Assembly (NCBI RefSeq): GCF_016464365.1
Contig: NZ_JADCUC010000008.1
Coordinates: 1 to 64,000 of the forward strand
Length of the DNA stretch: 64,000 bases
Origin: Sandaracinobacteroides hominis
Lineage (GTDB): Bacteria; Pseudomonadota; Alphaproteobacteria; Sphingomonadales; Sphingomonadaceae
Direction of reading: 5' to 3'
How positions within the stretch are numbered: the first letter of the stretch is position 1; every line of letters starts with the position of its first letter. Positions 1 through 7,172 of the stretch are shown one piece after another. A program made the position numbers and the translations under genes. The notes beneath the pieces were generated by a model that was not told where the DNA came from, ran no database searches, and was given only the letters and a program-made list of their open reading frames with translations.

Positions 1-171
1 GCGCTCAGGCAGGTCGCACCAATGCGCTCCAGATCTCAGAACCCACAAACATCCGTTCACAAACAATCGGTTATCCGACCCCGTCCGTCCAGGATCCCCC
101 GCCTTGCCCGGCAGCAGCAGCGCGATCCTCGCCCACTGCGCATCGTTCAACTCGTACCGCTTGATCCCCAT
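1..171 (-). CDS. IS5-family transposase, N-terminal fragment (cut by window edge)
   Basis: Reading leftward from the ATG at 171 gives 57 residues in an open frame to the window edge, beginning [20 protein letters not shown] and ending [13 protein letters not shown]. The pattern 'YELxDxxWxxIxxLLP ... [24 protein letters not shown]' is the N-terminal DUF4096-type domain of IS5-family DDE transposases. The catalytic DDE region would lie to the left of base 1. Many elements of this group encode the transposase in two overlapping frames, so the full protein may need frameshifting; that cannot be seen here. Confidence 0.85.
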
Positions 172-230
172 CGTCCGCTCCGCGTTCAACACGGAGCCCT
201 ATGAATCAGCGATCAACACGTTTGGAAATC
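1..230 (-). mobile_element. IS5-type insertion sequence, left part outside window
   Basis: The first ~230 bases carry the 5' end of a transposase gene and its short upstream region, read leftward out of the window. The inner boundary is not proven. It should lie between the transposase start at 171 and the Anbu stop codon at 248, and the stretch near 190-215 (TGATTCATAGGGCTCC on the minus strand) is the likeliest terminal repeat region. The other terminal repeat and any target duplication are outside the window. The element sits immediately downstream of the Anbu gene. Confidence 0.7.
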
Positions 231-247
231 CTGAATGTCGATCCCGC

Positions 248-997
248 CTAGGCTCCAGGGATCGGGTAGCTCGGCTCGGGGATGCCGTCGATTGCCTGGG
301 ACAGCGCCTTCGTCCAGCGGGCGCCGAGATCGTGGTAATATTCATCGTCCTCGTCGATCCGGGTCAGGGTGACGCTGGACTGGCCCGGACGCATCACCAG
401 CATGTCGATGGGCAGGCCTACGCCCAGATTCGAACGCATGGTGCTGTTCATGCTTACCAGCGCCACCTTGATCGCCTTTGGCAGTGGCGTGCGATAGTTC
501 AGCATGCGGTCTAGGATCGGCTTGCCGTACTTCAGTTCGCCGATCTGGAAATAGGGCGTGTCCATCCCGCACTCGATGAAATTGCCCTCGCCATAGATCA
601 TGAACAGGCGCGGGGCGCGGCCGTCTATCGAGCCACCGACCAGCAGCGTGACATCAAGGCTGACATCCTCCTGCTGCTGCACCACGGACTCAATGTCGCG
701 TTTGGCGCCGACAAGCGCCTCGCCGACGATCTGGGCGACCCGGAACATGGTGGGCGCGGTTTCCACGAACTCGGGCTCTTCCTTCCCCGGCATGAGCACG
801 CCTTCGTTGAGACGGTTGACCAGCGACTGGGTTGTGCTGAGCGAGCCTGCCGCCGTCAGGGCGATGATGCGCTTACCTTCTTCGCCGAAGACGCGGAGCT
901 TTCGGTAGATGGATATGTTGTCGATGCCGGCGTTCGTGCGGGTGTCGGCCAGCATCACCAGCCCTTCCTTCACCAGCAACCCGACGCAATAGGTCAT
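248..997 (-). CDS. anbu: Anbu, bacterial proteasome-related protease subunit
   Basis: A 249-residue protein of the Anbu ('ancestral beta subunit', COG3484) Ntn-hydrolase family, related to the proteasome beta subunit and HslV. It begins MTYCVG, so removal of Met exposes Thr as the N-terminal nucleophile; Asp18 (ADTRTNAG) and Lys33 (IYRKL) match the expected Thr1/Asp17/Lys32-33 catalytic set. A longer frame opens upstream to 1153, but the ATG at 997 is chosen because only it places Thr second. Family members form open helical or ring assemblies without an ATPase partner; substrates are unknown. It is the last gene of a minus-strand cluster, 28 bases after the transglutaminase-like gene, and an insertion sequence abuts its stop. 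Confidence 0.93.
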   Translation of the reverse strand: MTYCVGLLVKEGLVMLADTRTNAGIDNISIYRKLRVFGEEGKRIIALTAAGSLSTTQSLVNRLNEGVLMPGKEEPEFVETAPTMFRVAQIVGEALVGAKRDIESVVQQQEDVSLDVTLLVGGSIDGRAPRLFMIYGEGNFIECGMDTPYFQIGELKYGKPILDRMLNYRTPLPKAIKVALVSMNSTMRSNLGVGLPIDMLVMRPGQSSVTLTRIDEDDEYYHDLGARWTKALSQAIDGIPEPSYPIPGA

Positions 998-1025
998 TCG
1001 GCTCCCTTTGGCCCTTCTGCGCGCG

Positions 1026-1859
1026 TCAGGATTGGCTCTGAATCTGCGACTGGCCCTGACTGCCGGATTGCCGCCCGAAGACGCCAACCGCAAGCGATTC
1101 TGTACCCCCGCCGCGCCGGGAGCCGCGCACGGGCGCGGCATCGAGGCTGTCAAGGCCGACGGCGACGCGGATATGCGCCTCGGAACCCGAAATTCCGTGC
1201 GTGGGATCGAAGGTTACCCAGCCGAGATCGGGAATATAGGCCTCCGCCCAGGCGTGCGCCGCCTCCTGCTCCGGATGCTCGGAAGCTGCGAAATGGCCCG
1301 AGACATAGCGCGCCGGATGCTGGAGGTGGCGGGCGGCAGCGATGAAAATCTGCGAGAGGTCCTGGCAAACGCCGCGCCCGAGTTGCAGCGCGGAATCGGC
1401 ATTGGTCACCACGTTGGTGATCCCGGGTTCGAACTGCATGCGGTCCTTTACCCCCAGCATCAGCGCATGGAGGGTTTCCAGAGGGTCTGCATGGCGGAAC
1501 GGCTCGGCGAAGGCGGCGATTGCCGGGGTGATTTCCGTCAGGTCTGTTGAGCGGCGATAGATGATCGGCACCAGCGGCTCGTCGGTGCCACGCACGACGC
1601 CATGCGAATCCGAGGTGATGACGGTGCCGTTGACATGCAGAGTCAGCGCTTCGACAGGGCCATCTGCATAGAAGAGGTGGCAGTGGTTGCCATGCGGATC
1701 CTGCGCCATCACCAGCCGGCCGTCGGCGTCGACATCGATCCGCCAGTTCACCACCTGCTGATGGTCGTTGTCGCGGGGTGTAAGCCGCAGTTTCTGGACG
1801 ATGCCGGTGGCCGGCTCGGTGTAGCGGTAGGTGGTGATGTGATCGATACTGATCTGCAT
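1026..1859 (-). CDS. Transglutaminase-like cysteine protease/amidase
   Basis: A 277-residue protein of the bacterial transglutaminase-like family (COG1305). The N-terminal ~90 residues form the beta-rich bacterial transglutaminase N domain (MQISIDHITTYRY). The papain-like core carries the triad Cys165 (GRGVCQDLSQ), His202 (AAHAWAEAY) and Asp218 (FDPTHG). The last ~45 residues are Ser/Gln/Gly-rich and probably disordered. In this cluster context the enzyme is predicted to cleave or transfer peptide or isopeptide bonds made by the neighbouring ATP-grasp protein. It lies 14 bases downstream of the alpha-E gene and 28 upstream of Anbu, consistent with one transcript. No signal peptide is visible, so it is probably cytoplasmic. 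Confidence 0.92.
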   Translation of the reverse strand: MQISIDHITTYRYTEPATGIVQKLRLTPRDNDHQQVVNWRIDVDADGRLVMAQDPHGNHCHLFYADGPVEALTLHVNGTVITSDSHGVVRGTDEPLVPIIYRRSTDLTEITPAIAAFAEPFRHADPLETLHALMLGVKDRMQFEPGITNVVTNADSALQLGRGVCQDLSQIFIAAARHLQHPARYVSGHFAASEHPEQEAAHAWAEAYIPDLGWVTFDPTHGISGSEAHIRVAVGLDSLDAAPVRGSRRGGGTESLAVGVFGRQSGSQGQSQIQSQS

Positions 1860-1873
1860 GTGCCCTCTCCCGC

Positions 1874-2815
1874 TCAGAACAGATATTGCTCGGCGATAGC
1901 GTCGCCCAGCCTGTTGTTGTCAGCAATGAAGGCCAGCAGGAATTCGTGCAGCCCGGACTGAAACAGCGTGTCGATATCGGTCGCGGCAAGCTTGCGCAGC
2001 GATGTGGCTGCAACCCGGTTGGCCGGCCCGCGCCGTCCGCGCGAGGCCGCAAGTTGATCAAGCAGCCAGACGGCATCCTCAAGGCAGGCGATCAGCGACC
2101 GCGGCATGGCGCGATTGAAGACCAACAGGTCGGCCACCAGCCAGGGCTTCACGGATTCGCGATAGACCCAGCGATAGGCGGTGAGCGCGGAGACCGTGCG
2201 CAGCAGCGTCGTCCACTGGAAATAGTCGAGGCTGCCGCCCACCGGCTCGCTGCGCGGCAGCAGCAGATGGTATTTCACGTCGAGCAGGCGTGCGGTGTTG
2301 TCGGCGCGTTCGACGGTGGTACCGAGGCGCAGGAACCAGTAGGTCGCCTCGCGCAGCTGGGTACGGTGGGCGGCGCCGTCGAAACTGAGCAGCGCGCTCT
2401 TGATGCTGTCGGCAAGCCTGACCAGCGTGGTGCTGTCGATCGGCCCCTGCCCATAGCGCTGGATTTCATGCCAGGCGTCGTTGACGGCCTCCCACGTCTC
2501 CAGCGTGAGGGCAGTTCGGACGGCGCGGCCATTTGAGCGCGCAGCCTCCAGGCACCGACGGATGGAGCTGGAATTTTCCGTTTCCACGGTAAGATAATGG
2601 CCGACATTCAGCTCGTCGAAGGGCAGGTTCCGCTCGGTAAAGCCAATGTCGACCGCCGCCGATCGGATGGCGCTTTCCCAGGCCGGCTGCGCGCCGCCGT
2701 GCGAGGCAGGGAGCGAGGCGAGGCGAACAGTGGCGTCGATCAGGCGGCAGAGATAGTCGGCCCGCTCCAGGTAGCGGCCCATCCAGTAGAGATTTGCAGC
2801 AGACCGCGACAGCAT
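1874..2815 (-). CDS. Alpha-E domain protein
   Basis: A 313-residue all-helical protein of the alpha-E family (COG2307), recognised from the start MLSRSAANLYWMGRYLERAD, the 'W..R..ERADNTARLLD' segment and the C-terminal 'LHxFLxxIxxxNxxLGxAIxxQYLF' end. The function is unknown; it is almost always encoded next to the circularly permuted ATP-grasp and transglutaminase-like proteins and is predicted to act with them in synthesis of a small peptide. The ATG at 2815 is chosen over upstream codons because it begins the conserved block and lies one base after the stop of the ATP-grasp gene, which suggests translational coupling. Confidence 0.92.
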   Translation of the reverse strand: MLSRSAANLYWMGRYLERADYLCRLIDATVRLASLPASHGGAQPAWESAIRSAAVDIGFTERNLPFDELNVGHYLTVETENSSSIRRCLEAARSNGRAVRTALTLETWEAVNDAWHEIQRYGQGPIDSTTLVRLADSIKSALLSFDGAAHRTQLREATYWFLRLGTTVERADNTARLLDVKYHLLLPRSEPVGGSLDYFQWTTLLRTVSALTAYRWVYRESVKPWLVADLLVFNRAMPRSLIACLEDAVWLLDQLAASRGRRGPANRVAATSLRKLAATDIDTLFQSGLHEFLLAFIADNNRLGDAIAEQYLF

Positions 2816-2816
2816 C

Positions 2817-4331
2817 TCAGACGAGACTCGCCGGGGTTTCGGTATCGTAGGGACCACGGCTTTCGCCACCGAAGTCGCCCACCGCCGGGCTGTCGACCAC
2901 CCAGGTATCCTTGGTGCCGCCACCCTGGCTGGAGTTCACCACCAGCGAGCCTTCCTTCAGCGCTACTCGCGTCAGCCCGCCGGGGATGATCTTCACGCCG
3001 TTCGCGCCGGTAAGGACAAAGGGGCGGAGATCGACGTGGCGAGGAGCGAGGCCGGAAGCGGTGAGCGTGGGGCAGGTGCTGAGCGCCAGTGTCGGCTGGG
3101 CGATATAATGCTGCGGATTGGCCTTCAGCCGGGCGGCGAAGACCTGGCGCTCCGCCTGCGTGGCGTGTGGGCCGACCAGCATGCCATAACCGCCGGAACC
3201 GTCGGTTTCCTTGACGACCAGCTCGTGCAGATTGTCGAGCACATAGCCGAGCGAATCCGGCTCGCGGCAGCGCCAGGTGGGCACATTGTGCAGAAGAGGA
3301 TCGCGGCCGGTGAAAAAGCGCACGATTTCCGGCATGTAGCTATAGATCGCCTTGTCGTCGGCAATACCGGTGCCGATGGCGTTGGCGAGCGTCAGGTTGC
3401 CGGCATGGATGGCGCTGACGAGGCCCGGCACCCCCAGAGCGGAGTCGCTGCGGAACTGCAGCGGGTCGATGAAATCATCATCGACCCGGCGATAGAGGAC
3501 GTCGACCCGCTTCGGCCCTTCGGTGGTGCGCATGTAGAGCACATCGCTGTGGACGAAGAGGTCAGAGCCCTCGACCAGCTCGACGCCCAGCTTATCGGCG
3601 AGGAAACTATGTTCGTAATAGGCGCTGTTGTGGATGCCCGGCGTCAGCAGCGCGAGGCTCGGCTCTCCGGAACAGGTTGCCGGCGCCACCGAGGTCAGCG
3701 TCTCCAGCAGGGTTTCAGGGTAGGTTTCGACAGGGCGCAGGCCGCCGGTGGAGGCGAGGGCATGGATCATTTCCGGCACGAGGCGGAGCATCACCTCTCG
3801 GTTTTCCATCATATAGGAAACGCCGGAGGGCGTGCGTGCATTGTCTTCCAGCACGAAGAATTCGTCGGGGCCGGTGCGGACCAGGTCGATGCCGGCGATG
3901 TGCACCCAGACATCCTTGGCCGGGCGTCGGCCCACCTGCGGCAGGCAGAACTGGGGGTTGAGGAGGATCAGTTCCTCCGGGACGATTCCGGCCTTTATGC
4001 ACTCGCGCGGGCCGTAGACATCGGCAAGGAACATGTTGAGCGCCTGCACGCGCTGGGTGAGGCCTTCCTCCAGGCCCTTCCATTCGGTGCCGGAAATCAC
4101 CCTTGGGACGATATCGAAGGGGATCAGTCGTTCCTGTGCGTCCGGGTCTCCGTAGACGGCGAAGGTGATGCCGATGCGGCGGAAGAAAAGCTCTGCCTGC
4201 CGGCGCCGGGTTTCCAGCAGCTCGGGCGGGGCCGACTTCAGCCAGCGGGCGACTTCACCGTAGGCAGCGCGAACATCGTCTCCGCCAAAGGGCGCAAATC
4301 CAAATGTCTCGTCGAAGGCGCGTGCTGTCAC
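2817..4331 (-). CDS. Circularly permuted type 2 ATP-grasp protein
   Basis: A 504-residue member of the circularly permuted ATP-grasp family (COG2308). Recognisable blocks are the N-terminal 'IPFDIVPRVI' region (about residues 69-80), 'LEDNARTPSG' (161-170) and the glycine-rich 'VKETDGSGGYGM' (373-384), thought to bind ATP and Mg2+. The family is predicted to ligate amino acids or add them to a carboxylate. With alpha-E, transglutaminase-like and Anbu genes it forms the operon type described bioinformatically as a predicted peptide-synthesis and processing system. No product is known. The start ATG at 4331 lies 49 bases after the upstream lipoprotein gene on the same strand. Confidence 0.93.
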   Translation of the reverse strand: MTARAFDETFGFAPFGGDDVRAAYGEVARWLKSAPPELLETRRRQAELFFRRIGITFAVYGDPDAQERLIPFDIVPRVISGTEWKGLEEGLTQRVQALNMFLADVYGPRECIKAGIVPEELILLNPQFCLPQVGRRPAKDVWVHIAGIDLVRTGPDEFFVLEDNARTPSGVSYMMENREVMLRLVPEMIHALASTGGLRPVETYPETLLETLTSVAPATCSGEPSLALLTPGIHNSAYYEHSFLADKLGVELVEGSDLFVHSDVLYMRTTEGPKRVDVLYRRVDDDFIDPLQFRSDSALGVPGLVSAIHAGNLTLANAIGTGIADDKAIYSYMPEIVRFFTGRDPLLHNVPTWRCREPDSLGYVLDNLHELVVKETDGSGGYGMLVGPHATQAERQVFAARLKANPQHYIAQPTLALSTCPTLTASGLAPRHVDLRPFVLTGANGVKIIPGGLTRVALKEGSLVVNSSQGGGTKDTWVVDSPAVGDFGGESRGPYDTETPASLV

Positions 4332-4380
4332 ATCCGCATACTGTGCGGTGCAGCAAAGTCGTGCAACTGCTTTCTTCTCG

Positions 4381-5310
4381 CTATTGGTCGTTCACTACCG
4401 AACGCCCCTGCGAACGGACCTCGCGCTGGGTGCTGCGCGAGGGCTGGCTTGCCTGAGGCTGGCGTTGCGGACGGGCGACCTCTTGCCGGGGCCGGGATTG
4501 TTCCGGCTGGGCCTGTGGGGGCCTTGCCGGCGGCGGTTGCCGGTTCAGGCCGGGACGTTGGCCGCCCTGCCATCCCTGCGGCGGTTGGCGGTTGCCGCCC
4601 TGCCATGCCTGCTGGCCCGGCTGACGCTCTCCGCGCTGCCATTGGGGGCGGGGCGGGCGCTGGCCGTTGCCGGCCGACTGGTCGACCTGTGCGGGACGTT
4701 CGCCGCCCTGCCATTCGGGCGGGGTGCGGGGATGGGAATTCGGCGGGATGCGGAACGGCGGTCGTGGCGTTGCGACCTGATCGCCGGGACGGGGCCGGCC
4801 TGCGTCGGGTTTTTCCGGACGCGGCTTGCCGATCCACGGGTTGCGGCCGCGATAGCCATAGGGGGCGCTGGGCGACCACATGCCATCGGAGCGCCAATCG
4901 ACCCAGGAGCCGCCGAAGCGGGTATCGGGCACCCAGTACCAGCCGAGCCGGGGGTCCTGGCCCCAGCGGCCATAATGGTAGGTCGCCCAGCCGAACGGCT
5001 CCTGCGAGACCCAGCGGCGGCCATAGCGGCTGTCGGTTCGCCAGTAGCCGCGGCTGTACGGGCTCCAGCCGGAGCCGACGTTGCCGGGCCAGAACACCTG
5101 ACCATAGCCGGGGTAGCTGCCCCAGCGGCCATATTGCGAGAGCGGGCCATAGAAGAGGTCAATGGAGGCGGCATTCTGCCCCCACCAGCCCACCGGGGCG
5201 GGATAATCATAGCCGTAGCGATCAGAGCCGGGCGCCTCTGACCAATCGTCGAGTGTCATGCATCCGGCGAGGGAGAGGCCGGCGAGAATCGGGACCAGAA
5301 GGCGTTTCAT
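4381..5310 (-). CDS. YXWGXW-type lipoprotein with Pro/Gln-rich tail
   Basis: A 309-residue predicted lipoprotein. MKRLL begins a signal peptide with a lipobox ending LAGC, so Cys17 would be acylated. Residues ~25-150 are rich in Trp, Tyr and Gly with recurring blocks (YGRWG, GYWRTD, YHYGRWG, LGWYWVPD) typical of the DUF6600/YXWGXW envelope family. From about residue 165 to the end it is Pro/Gln/Arg-rich, with repeated 'WQGG' motifs, and probably disordered. The start at 5310 is set by the signal peptide. It lies 49 bases upstream of the ATP-grasp gene in the same direction, so it may be the first gene of the Anbu operon; that link is inference. The function is unknown. Confidence 0.8.
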   Translation of the reverse strand: MKRLLVPILAGLSLAGCMTLDDWSEAPGSDRYGYDYPAPVGWWGQNAASIDLFYGPLSQYGRWGSYPGYGQVFWPGNVGSGWSPYSRGYWRTDSRYGRRWVSQEPFGWATYHYGRWGQDPRLGWYWVPDTRFGGSWVDWRSDGMWSPSAPYGYRGRNPWIGKPRPEKPDAGRPRPGDQVATPRPPFRIPPNSHPRTPPEWQGGERPAQVDQSAGNGQRPPRPQWQRGERQPGQQAWQGGNRQPPQGWQGGQRPGLNRQPPPARPPQAQPEQSRPRQEVARPQRQPQASQPSRSTQREVRSQGRSVVNDQ

Positions 5311-5393
5311 GGCGGAAATGTTGCGACTTCGCTGTTGAATGGCGGCTGACCAAATGCGTATCGAAGGGGCAAGGCAAGGGATTGGGGATCGCG

Positions 5394-7172
5394 ATGATTG
5401 CAACACGACTGTTGGCCGCTGCCGGAACGATGCTGTTGCTGTCATCGGCGCCCGTGGCCCTTGCGGCACCGACCGGCGGCGCAGCCGCCGAGGCAGGGAC
5501 AGCCGATTCGCGGCTGAAGGCGCTGTATGCGGCGGAGTTTGCCTGGCGGCGGGCGGAGGAAGGGCGGCTGCCCGGGTTCGGTCCGGAGTCGATGGGCGAC
5601 CGGCTGCCGCGGGTGGATCCGAAATCGCAGGCGGCACGGCTGGCCTATTGGCAGGATGTGCTGAAACAGCTGGACGCCATTCCGCTGGACCAGCTGTCTC
5701 CGGAAGAGCGGGTGAATGCGCAGGTTTTCCGCTCCATGGTGGAAACCAGCGCTTCGGAAATCCGCTGGAAACAATATGAGATCCCGTTCAACGCCGACAG
5801 CTTCTTCTGGGCCGATATCGCGCCCTATTCGGGCGAAGGCTTTGCCGATGCCGACCAGTATCGCCGCTATATCGCCCGGATCCGCGATGTGCCGCGCTAT
5901 TTCGACGAGAATATCGCCAACATGCGCGCCGGGCTGAAGCGCGGCTTCAGCAATCCGAAACAGACGCTGGTGGGGCGCGAGAAGACCATAGACCCCTATC
6001 TGAAGGCGGATGCGAGCAACCCGCTCCTTGCACCGTTCAGGTCGATGCCGACGACAATCCCGGCTGCCGAGCAGGCGGCGCTGCGGGCCGATGGCGAGGC
6101 GGCGATCCGCGAAGCTGCGGTGCCTGCCTTCACGCGGCTGAGCGACTTCATCCGCAACGACTATATTCCCAACGCGCGGAAAAGCATCGGCGCGTCGGAC
6201 ATGCCGGATGGCCGGGCCTTTTATGCGGCTCAGGTGAAGGCCTTTACCACGACCGACATGACGCCGCGCGAAATCCACGAGCTGGGCCTGAAGGAAGTGG
6301 CGCGCATCCAGGCCGACATGGAAAAGACCAAGGCCGCCGCCGGCTTCGACGGCAGCCTGAAGGACTTCATCGCCTTTCTGAAGAGCGACCCGCAATTCTA
6401 TGCGAAGACCCCGCACGAGCTGCTGGCGGAGACCGCCTATGTGGTGATGGAAGTGAATGGTCAGCTGAAGGACTATTTCGGCACCCTGCCCCGCTTTCGG
6501 CATGGAATCGTGCCGGTGCCGGATGCCATTGCCCCCATCTATACCAGCGGCCGCGGCGGGCTCGAGAACTGCATGATGAACACATACAAGCTGGACTCGC
6601 GGCCTATGTATTCGCTGCCGGCGCTGACGCTGCACGAATGCACGCCGGGGCACAGCTTCCAGGCGGCGCTGGCGCTGGAGGCGCCGGAGCGGCCCGACTT
6701 CCGAAAGGAGCTGTATTTCTCGGGCTATGGCGAGGGCTGGGGGCTCTATACCGAGTGGCTGGGGACTTTGATGGGGGTGTATGACACGCCCTATAAGGAG
6801 TTCGGGCGGCAGAGCTATGAGATGTGGCGCGCGGTGCGGCTGGTGGTGGATACCGGCATGCACGAATATGGCTGGAGCCGCGAGAAGGCGCTGCACTATA
6901 TGAAGGATCATCTGGCGCTTTCCGATCTGGAAATCACCAATGAGGTCGATCGCTATATCAGCTGGCCGGGGCAGGCCCTGGCCTACAAGCTGGGGGAGCT
7001 GACGATCCGCCGGCTGCGGGCCGAGGCGGAGGCGAAGCTGGGGCCGAAGTTCGACCAGCGGGCGTTCCATGACCGGATACTGGGGATGGGCGCGGTGCCC
7101 TTGCCGGTGCTGGAGAGGGAGATGCGGACGTGGATGGCGGCGGAGGTGGCGAAACCCGGCGCGCAACGCTGA
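5394..7172 (+). CDS. Secreted DUF885 family protein, putative metallohydrolase
   Basis: A 592-residue protein of the DUF885 family. The N-terminus has a Sec signal peptide with probable cleavage after VALA at residue 24. The family's HExxPGH-like metal motif is present as HECTPGH (residues 414-420), followed by the 'GYGEGWGLYTE' helix (Glu447) as the likely third ligand region. Relatives are uncharacterised or act as carboxypeptidase-like or ester hydrolases in the periplasm; the substrate here is unknown. The frame is open for 2.3 kb upstream, but that extension is antisense to real genes; the ATG at 5394 starts the signal peptide. It is divergent from the lipoprotein gene across 83 bases. 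Confidence 0.88.
   Translation: MIATRLLAAAGTMLLLSSAPVALAAPTGGAAAEAGTADSRLKALYAAEFAWRRAEEGRLPGFGPESMGDRLPRVDPKSQAARLAYWQDVLKQLDAIPLDQLSPEERVNAQVFRSMVETSASEIRWKQYEIPFNADSFFWADIAPYSGEGFADADQYRRYIARIRDVPRYFDENIANMRAGLKRGFSNPKQTLVGREKTIDPYLKADASNPLLAPFRSMPTTIPAAEQAALRADGEAAIREAAVPAFTRLSDFIRNDYIPNARKSIGASDMPDGRAFYAAQVKAFTTTDMTPREIHELGLKEVARIQADMEKTKAAAGFDGSLKDFIAFLKSDPQFYAKTPHELLAETAYVVMEVNGQLKDYFGTLPRFRHGIVPVPDAIAPIYTSGRGGLENCMMNTYKLDSRPMYSLPALTLHECTPGHSFQAALALEAPERPDFRKELYFSGYGEGWGLYTEWLGTLMGVYDTPYKEFGRQSYEMWRAVRLVVDTGMHEYGWSREKALHYMKDHLALSDLEITNEVDRYISWPGQALAYKLGELTIRRLRAEAEAKLGPKFDQRAFHDRILGMGAVPLPVLEREMRTWMAAEVAKPGAQR

Follow-up and report, generated by a model that had tools for sequence, protein, structure and literature searches.

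The closest described system is the Anbu operon, whose gene set (ATP-grasp, Alpha-E, transglutaminase-like and Anbu genes) is given in the passages cited here from PMC6376114 and PMC5666114. According to the same passages, Anbu preparations had no detectable peptidase activity and Anbu has no AAA+ partner; PMC6376114 also reports high Anbu expression under nitrogen starvation, and as of 2021 the passage cited from PMC8665760 still described Anbu as being without any known function. In Burkholderia cenocepacia, a cluster composed of DUF404/407, DUF403 and two transglutaminase-like genes is NtrC- and sigma54-dependent (PMC5491218, passage cited). Anbu is not among the genes listed in that passage, which would fit a sister cluster. 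The cited part of a survey (PMC12316311) includes the proteasome-type protease COG3484 among the sigma54-enriched families.

The window, here meaning the whole stretch of 64,000 nucleotides of Sandaracinobacteroides hominis DNA that was analysed, begins at the start of its contig. It shares with the published Anbu operon the four families, the gene order, the single strand and the conserved Anbu residues, and differs from it in having a DUF6600 gene upstream of the cluster (Table 1). The window cluster is an intact member of an already described kind, in agreement with the original prediction of a known Anbu set whose product is not established (PMC6376114 and PMC5666114, passages cited). All four genes are complete and above the Pfam cut-offs, and the coordinates and Pfam matches agree with the predicted four intact genes separated by gaps of 28 (Anbu/transglutaminase-like), 14 (transglutaminase-like/Alpha-E) and 1 (Alpha-E/ATP-grasp) bases. 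A search of the window genome gave a single match each for Alpha-E, ATP-grasp and DUF6600. The order and strand of the four genes were kept in 64 of the 65 named relatives where all four were found; 15 of the 80 named loci were without at least one cluster gene, several of them lying at contig ends. None of the five proteins searched matched PADLOC anti-phage defence models at E up to 0.001. The start of a transposase gene, truncated by the contig end, is located just 3' of Anbu.

Table 1. Features of the Anbu cluster and its surroundings in the window.
Feature	Coordinates	Strand	Match or score
IS4/5-family transposase gene, start	1-171	-	PF13340
Anbu, proteasome-like Ntn hydrolase, nucleophile Thr2	248-997	-	PF00227
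Transglutaminase-like protein, Cys165-His202-Asp218	1026-1859	-	PF08379 + PF01841; residues checked
Alpha-E protein	1874-2815	-	PF04168, E 4e-87
Circularly permuted ATP-grasp ligase, GTG start	2817-4331	-	PF14403, E 1e-157; 3n6x_A, 628 bits
Promoter-like element, TTGCAC-N17-CAGTAT	4338-4366	-	Score 13/16, reached by 0/200 shuffles
DUF6600 lipoprotein gene	4381-5310	-	PF20245, E 5e-24, above cut-off
DUF885 gene, divergent from DUF6600	5394-7172	+	

Among the best five solved relatives of the window Anbu (E 2e-68 to 3e-53), three chains carry the label Anbu and two the label Peptidase; the passage cited from PMC8665760 names one of the latter, 5lox, as an Anbu structure. Proteasome chains were matched at E 2e-4 or worse only, and HslV was absent among the solved-structure matches at E up to 0.001. 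Judged by its sequence, the gene is of the Anbu type and not an HslV or proteasome gene. The published candidate catalytic residues of mature Anbu, Thr1, Asp17 and Lys32(33), have their counterparts in Thr2, Asp18 and Lys33 of the window protein (numbering with the Met), which were kept in all 66 relatives where the gene was found; these residues and those of the transglutaminase-like protein are present as claimed beforehand. The closest solved structure to the ATP-grasp protein is 3n6x, annotated as a putative glutathionylspermidine synthase, and that to the transglutaminase-like protein is one transglutaminase-like protein (E 2e-9). Alpha-E had no solved-structure match at E up to 0.1.

The upstream gene had been taken for a YXWGXW-type lipoprotein gene. 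Its position (49 bases from the ATP-grasp gene, on the same strand) and the LAGC lipobox of its product stood, but the family did not: the gene fits the DUF6600 model above the cut-off, with no other Pfam family and no NCBIfam family at E up to 0.001, and the YXWGXW identity was rejected. Pfam presumably holds models for YXWGXW or WXXGXW repeats. Inspection by eye indicated that an ordinary signal peptide apparently replaces the lipobox in five linked relatives, that is, loci with DUF6600 beside the cluster (L006, L012, L084, L088 and L089). The predicted structure of the DUF6600 protein had a mean pLDDT of 50 and matched no PDB entry at E up to 0.001, its sequence had no solved-structure match at E up to 1, and no mention of DUF6600 was found in the literature searched. 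The DUF6600 protein looks exported and the four cluster enzymes cytosolic, the latter having no signal peptide by eye from their translations.

Glutamine makes up 17% of the DUF6600 tail in the window, 1-4% in L002, L003, L014, L084 and L085, and 1-17% among the linked DUF6600 proteins. The range was 1-29% among 29 DUF6600 loci taken as unlinked, a set that counts the G113 copy (L093) as unlinked, includes four loci open at a contig end and has crudely trimmed starts. Since tail Gln content varies widely among DUF6600 proteins, the putative Gln donor is not a conserved feature. DUF6600 also occurs without the cluster, and the original prediction that the Gln-rich tail is the cluster's target was not upheld. 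Tail Lys is 0-1% in the linked proteins. The DUF6600 C-termini RPQ or RPD were considered as a ligase target and rejected; RPQ also ends the L090 and L092 proteins, which lie away from the cluster.

A DUF6600 gene was found in 10 of the 80 named ATP-grasp loci, every one upstream and on the same strand; this is a lower bound, as the upstream stretch is short in some of the other loci as well. An eleventh locus, L011, is cut by a contig end, but a tail resembling DUF6600 precedes the ATP-grasp gene there. In a sample of 149 genomes of the family Sphingomonadaceae, DUF6600 was present in 11 and ATP-grasp in 124, of which 114 had no DUF6600 match. DUF6600 was directly upstream of ATP-grasp in seven of the 11 (G000, the window genome; G063, the genome of L006; G101, G003, G038, G134 and G140). 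One gene, PEP-CTERM-like in appearance, intervened in two (G030 and G113, the latter with its DUF6600 split across two contigs), DUF6600 was elsewhere in the genome in one (G020), and one had no ATP-grasp match (G106). Both genes were therefore kept together in 9 of the 10 family genomes containing them. At about 7520-8330 in L084 and about 130-960 in L094, DUF6600 is separated from the ATP-grasp gene by a small gene that ends in what we take to be a PEP-CTERM-like motif.

Wider samples, of 385 genomes of the class and 398 of the phylum, added 31 genomes with DUF6600 from outside the family, the match in G409 being below the cut-off; 25 of the 31 had ATP-grasp. The window DUF6600 gene adjoins the Anbu cluster, whereas no adjacency was seen in these 25 genomes: the two genes were on the same contig at least 33 kb apart in seven (nearest in G790) and on different contigs in 18, including G293, where both are at contig ends and adjacency cannot be read off. 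The adjacency is lineage-specific, since it is kept within one lineage of the family and none was seen outside the family. The original expectation of adjacency beyond chance was borne out within one lineage by the family survey and the tree, and conservation was found within this lineage but not outside it.

In the tree of 52 ATP-grasp proteins, all 17 linked loci (including L084, with its gene in between) fell in one 26-row clade with support of 100/98, whose unlinked rows include L095, L096 and the L008/L009/L091 group. The tree reports seven linkage changes, perhaps too many, with L094 and L011 labelled unlinked despite their DUF6600 tails. The flank beyond DUF6600 varies, by labels assigned partly by eye: the window and L087 have a DUF885 gene there, L006, L012, L083 and L088 a transporter-like gene, and L007 and L010 a tRNA-like sequence, with different contents again in other loci. 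Comparison of loci by tblastn found the divergent DUF6600 and DUF885 pair elsewhere only in L087. L089 and L095, of the same genus, have a small left neighbour gene in common. DUF6600 comes next only in L089; in L095 this gene is directly followed by the element and the ATP-grasp gene, which makes a clean empty site. The genomes of L095 and L096 had no DUF6600 match, and their clusters are intact. The DUF6600 gene would have reached its upstream position in the lineage's ancestor; many descendants may then have retained it there, and in the rest it may have disappeared or changed place.

The promoter-like element fills most of the 49-base gap, with 6 bases between its end and the GTG start. 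Its general form in the clade is TTGCGC, usually 16 or 17 bases, and a CACTAT-like word, near the ATP-grasp start, often with TGCA just 5' of the second word. Each locus was scored against 200 dinucleotide shuffles, with a consensus read by eye from the scored loci, so that the shuffle test is partly circular and its figures favour the element. The score was at least 12/16 in 23 of the 26 clade loci and lower in L003, L085 and L087; it was no better than shuffles in L085 (10/16) and L087 (11/16), the latter being the nearest relative of the window, and borderline in L003, L009, L019 and L091 (matched by 4-8% of shuffles). Outside the clade, L081 scored 10, and the more distant family loci, scored without shuffles, reached 11 or below in 20 of 20 and at least 12 in none. 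L084 and L094, with their extra gene between DUF6600 and the element position, scored 12 with a spacing of 19. The candidate promoter is kept where no DUF6600 gene precedes the ATP-grasp gene (L004, 14/16; L095, 16/16; L096, 14/16), which is a stronger point than the shuffle figures.

A promoter scan with an E. coli-type consensus found none in 1-6500. The original prediction had named a separate promoter or a strong terminator between the two genes, together with a lack of conserved adjacency in related genomes, as evidence against itself; sequence analysis supplied a candidate promoter, and the adjacency is conserved within the lineage. No terminator was found on the genes' strand in the window gap, so that read-through from DUF6600 could occur. 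The only terminator-like match in the gap is on the opposite strand (4342-4365). Among the 17 linked loci, terminator hairpins between the genes were clearly beyond shuffles in just L007 and L019; a visible hairpin in L083 was rejected as a terminator, being not beyond shuffles (z -1.0). A regulon for the gap element was also rejected: its exact pattern occurs three times genome-wide, one being this site, and the ORFs near the other two suggest no partner. A PhaR-type operator within the element was a further idea considered.

A different promoter type was seen outside the order, where 41 of 64 loci have a sigma54-like -24/-12 site upstream of ATP-grasp (against about 0.7% of shuffles), many of these 41 being close Bradyrhizobium relatives and not independent. 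Such a site was found in none of the 26 clade loci and none of the 20 other family loci. The window has a sigma70-like element where many Rhizobiales-type Anbu relatives have a sigma54-like site, which suggests that the promoter type changed between the window lineage and the loci outside the order. Sigma54 sites before DUF6600 (three scattered 9/12 matches) or in the gap (none) were not convincing. Given the lack of sigma54-like sites in the 26 clade loci and of Anbu in the Burkholderia passage cited (PMC5491218), a nitrogen role may not apply to the window cluster.

The locus probably contains an ordinary Anbu cluster (248-4331) with its own promoter in the gap and a make-and-break role, DUF6600 being a separate unit. 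Transcription of the cluster would start at the gap promoter and, since the element ends so close to the GTG start, the message would be nearly leaderless. From the established properties of the enzyme families, the ATP-grasp ligase, probably with Alpha-E, would couple a carboxyl group with an amino acid or peptide in the cytosol, the transglutaminase-like protein would transfer or hydrolyse such an amide, and Anbu would cut the product or tag. The whole would be a make-and-break cycle, which in certain other bacteria would be linked with the supply of nitrogen, as the passages cited from PMC6376114 and PMC12316311 and the sigma54-like sites of the 41 loci outside the order support; our best guess for the cluster role is the making and breaking of a cytosolic peptide or isopeptide. 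The original prediction placed the lipoprotein gene at the head of the operon, co-transcribed with it, with the Gln-rich tail as transglutaminase substrate. The shared strand, the 49-base gap with no terminator on that strand in the window and the adjacency conserved in the lineage are consistent with this, but the predicted promoter intervenes and is kept in relatives without DUF6600 there, tail Gln falls to 1-4% in five linked loci and rises to 29% away from the cluster, and DUF6600 looks exported while the four enzymes appear to have no signal peptide. The operon-head arrangement was not supported by these comparisons, and we consider it the least probable of all. A true substrate of the widespread Anbu cluster would be a valuable find; DUF6600, a tempting candidate, is made unlikely as one, and the cluster's own transcript start in this lineage has probably been located.

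A functional tie keeps some room, since the adjacency survives changes in the outer flanks. DUF6600 could be a separately promoted accessory, such as an envelope protein whose abundance becomes important while the cluster is at work, as the 9 of 10 family genomes that keep the genes together despite differing outer flanks would suggest. This seems unlikely, as G106 has DUF6600 but no ATP-grasp match, G020 has the two apart, L095 and L096 lack DUF6600 despite an intact cluster, and no adjacency was seen in any of the 31 genomes with DUF6600 from outside the family. A single ancestral arrangement that was seldom broken would leave the same pattern. It is distinctly unlikely that the exported DUF6600 protein is a dedicated, separately promoted Anbu partner in this lineage, held adjacent by selection while the flanks changed. 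If true, DUF6600 would supply an Anbu system with an envelope component, and the literature searched gave no report of such a thing. We take COG3484 to be Anbu. Its place among the sigma54-enriched families (PMC12316311) and the raised Anbu expression under nitrogen starvation (PMC6376114), both from the passages cited, would fit a cluster that is a general aid to protein degradation under nitrogen shortage, with Anbu a true protease. That role is very improbable, because the passages cited from PMC6376114 and PMC5666114 report a lack of both peptidase activity and an AAA+ partner, and the ligase and Alpha-E would be left without explanation.

Upstream of DUF6600, an element resembling CATTCATCG, the sequence of one scored locus (L010) that was used as seed, recurs in L006, L007, L010, L014, L016, L018, L019, L083, L088 and L089. 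It is strong in these 10 of the 17 linked loci and not significant in the window, and may be DUF6600's own promoter or a regulator site.

In 16 of 77 relatives (L013, L015, L017, L020-L022, L024-L030, L049, L066 and L067), the position of window Cys165 in the transglutaminase-like protein holds Ala, Pro or Ser or falls in a gap, and His202 and Asp218 were kept in all 77. A tree of 50 of the 78 transglutaminase-like rows requires at least two changes, most simply two Cys losses. The 16 genomes contain 60 matches to the transglutaminase-like family; the 30 of these copies that were fetched as loci are all distinct from the cluster copies, and all keep the Cys. No report of Cys loss in the cluster protein was found in the literature searched. 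If this loss is upheld, Cys-based chemistry would not be essential to the system everywhere, which would narrow the models of its function.
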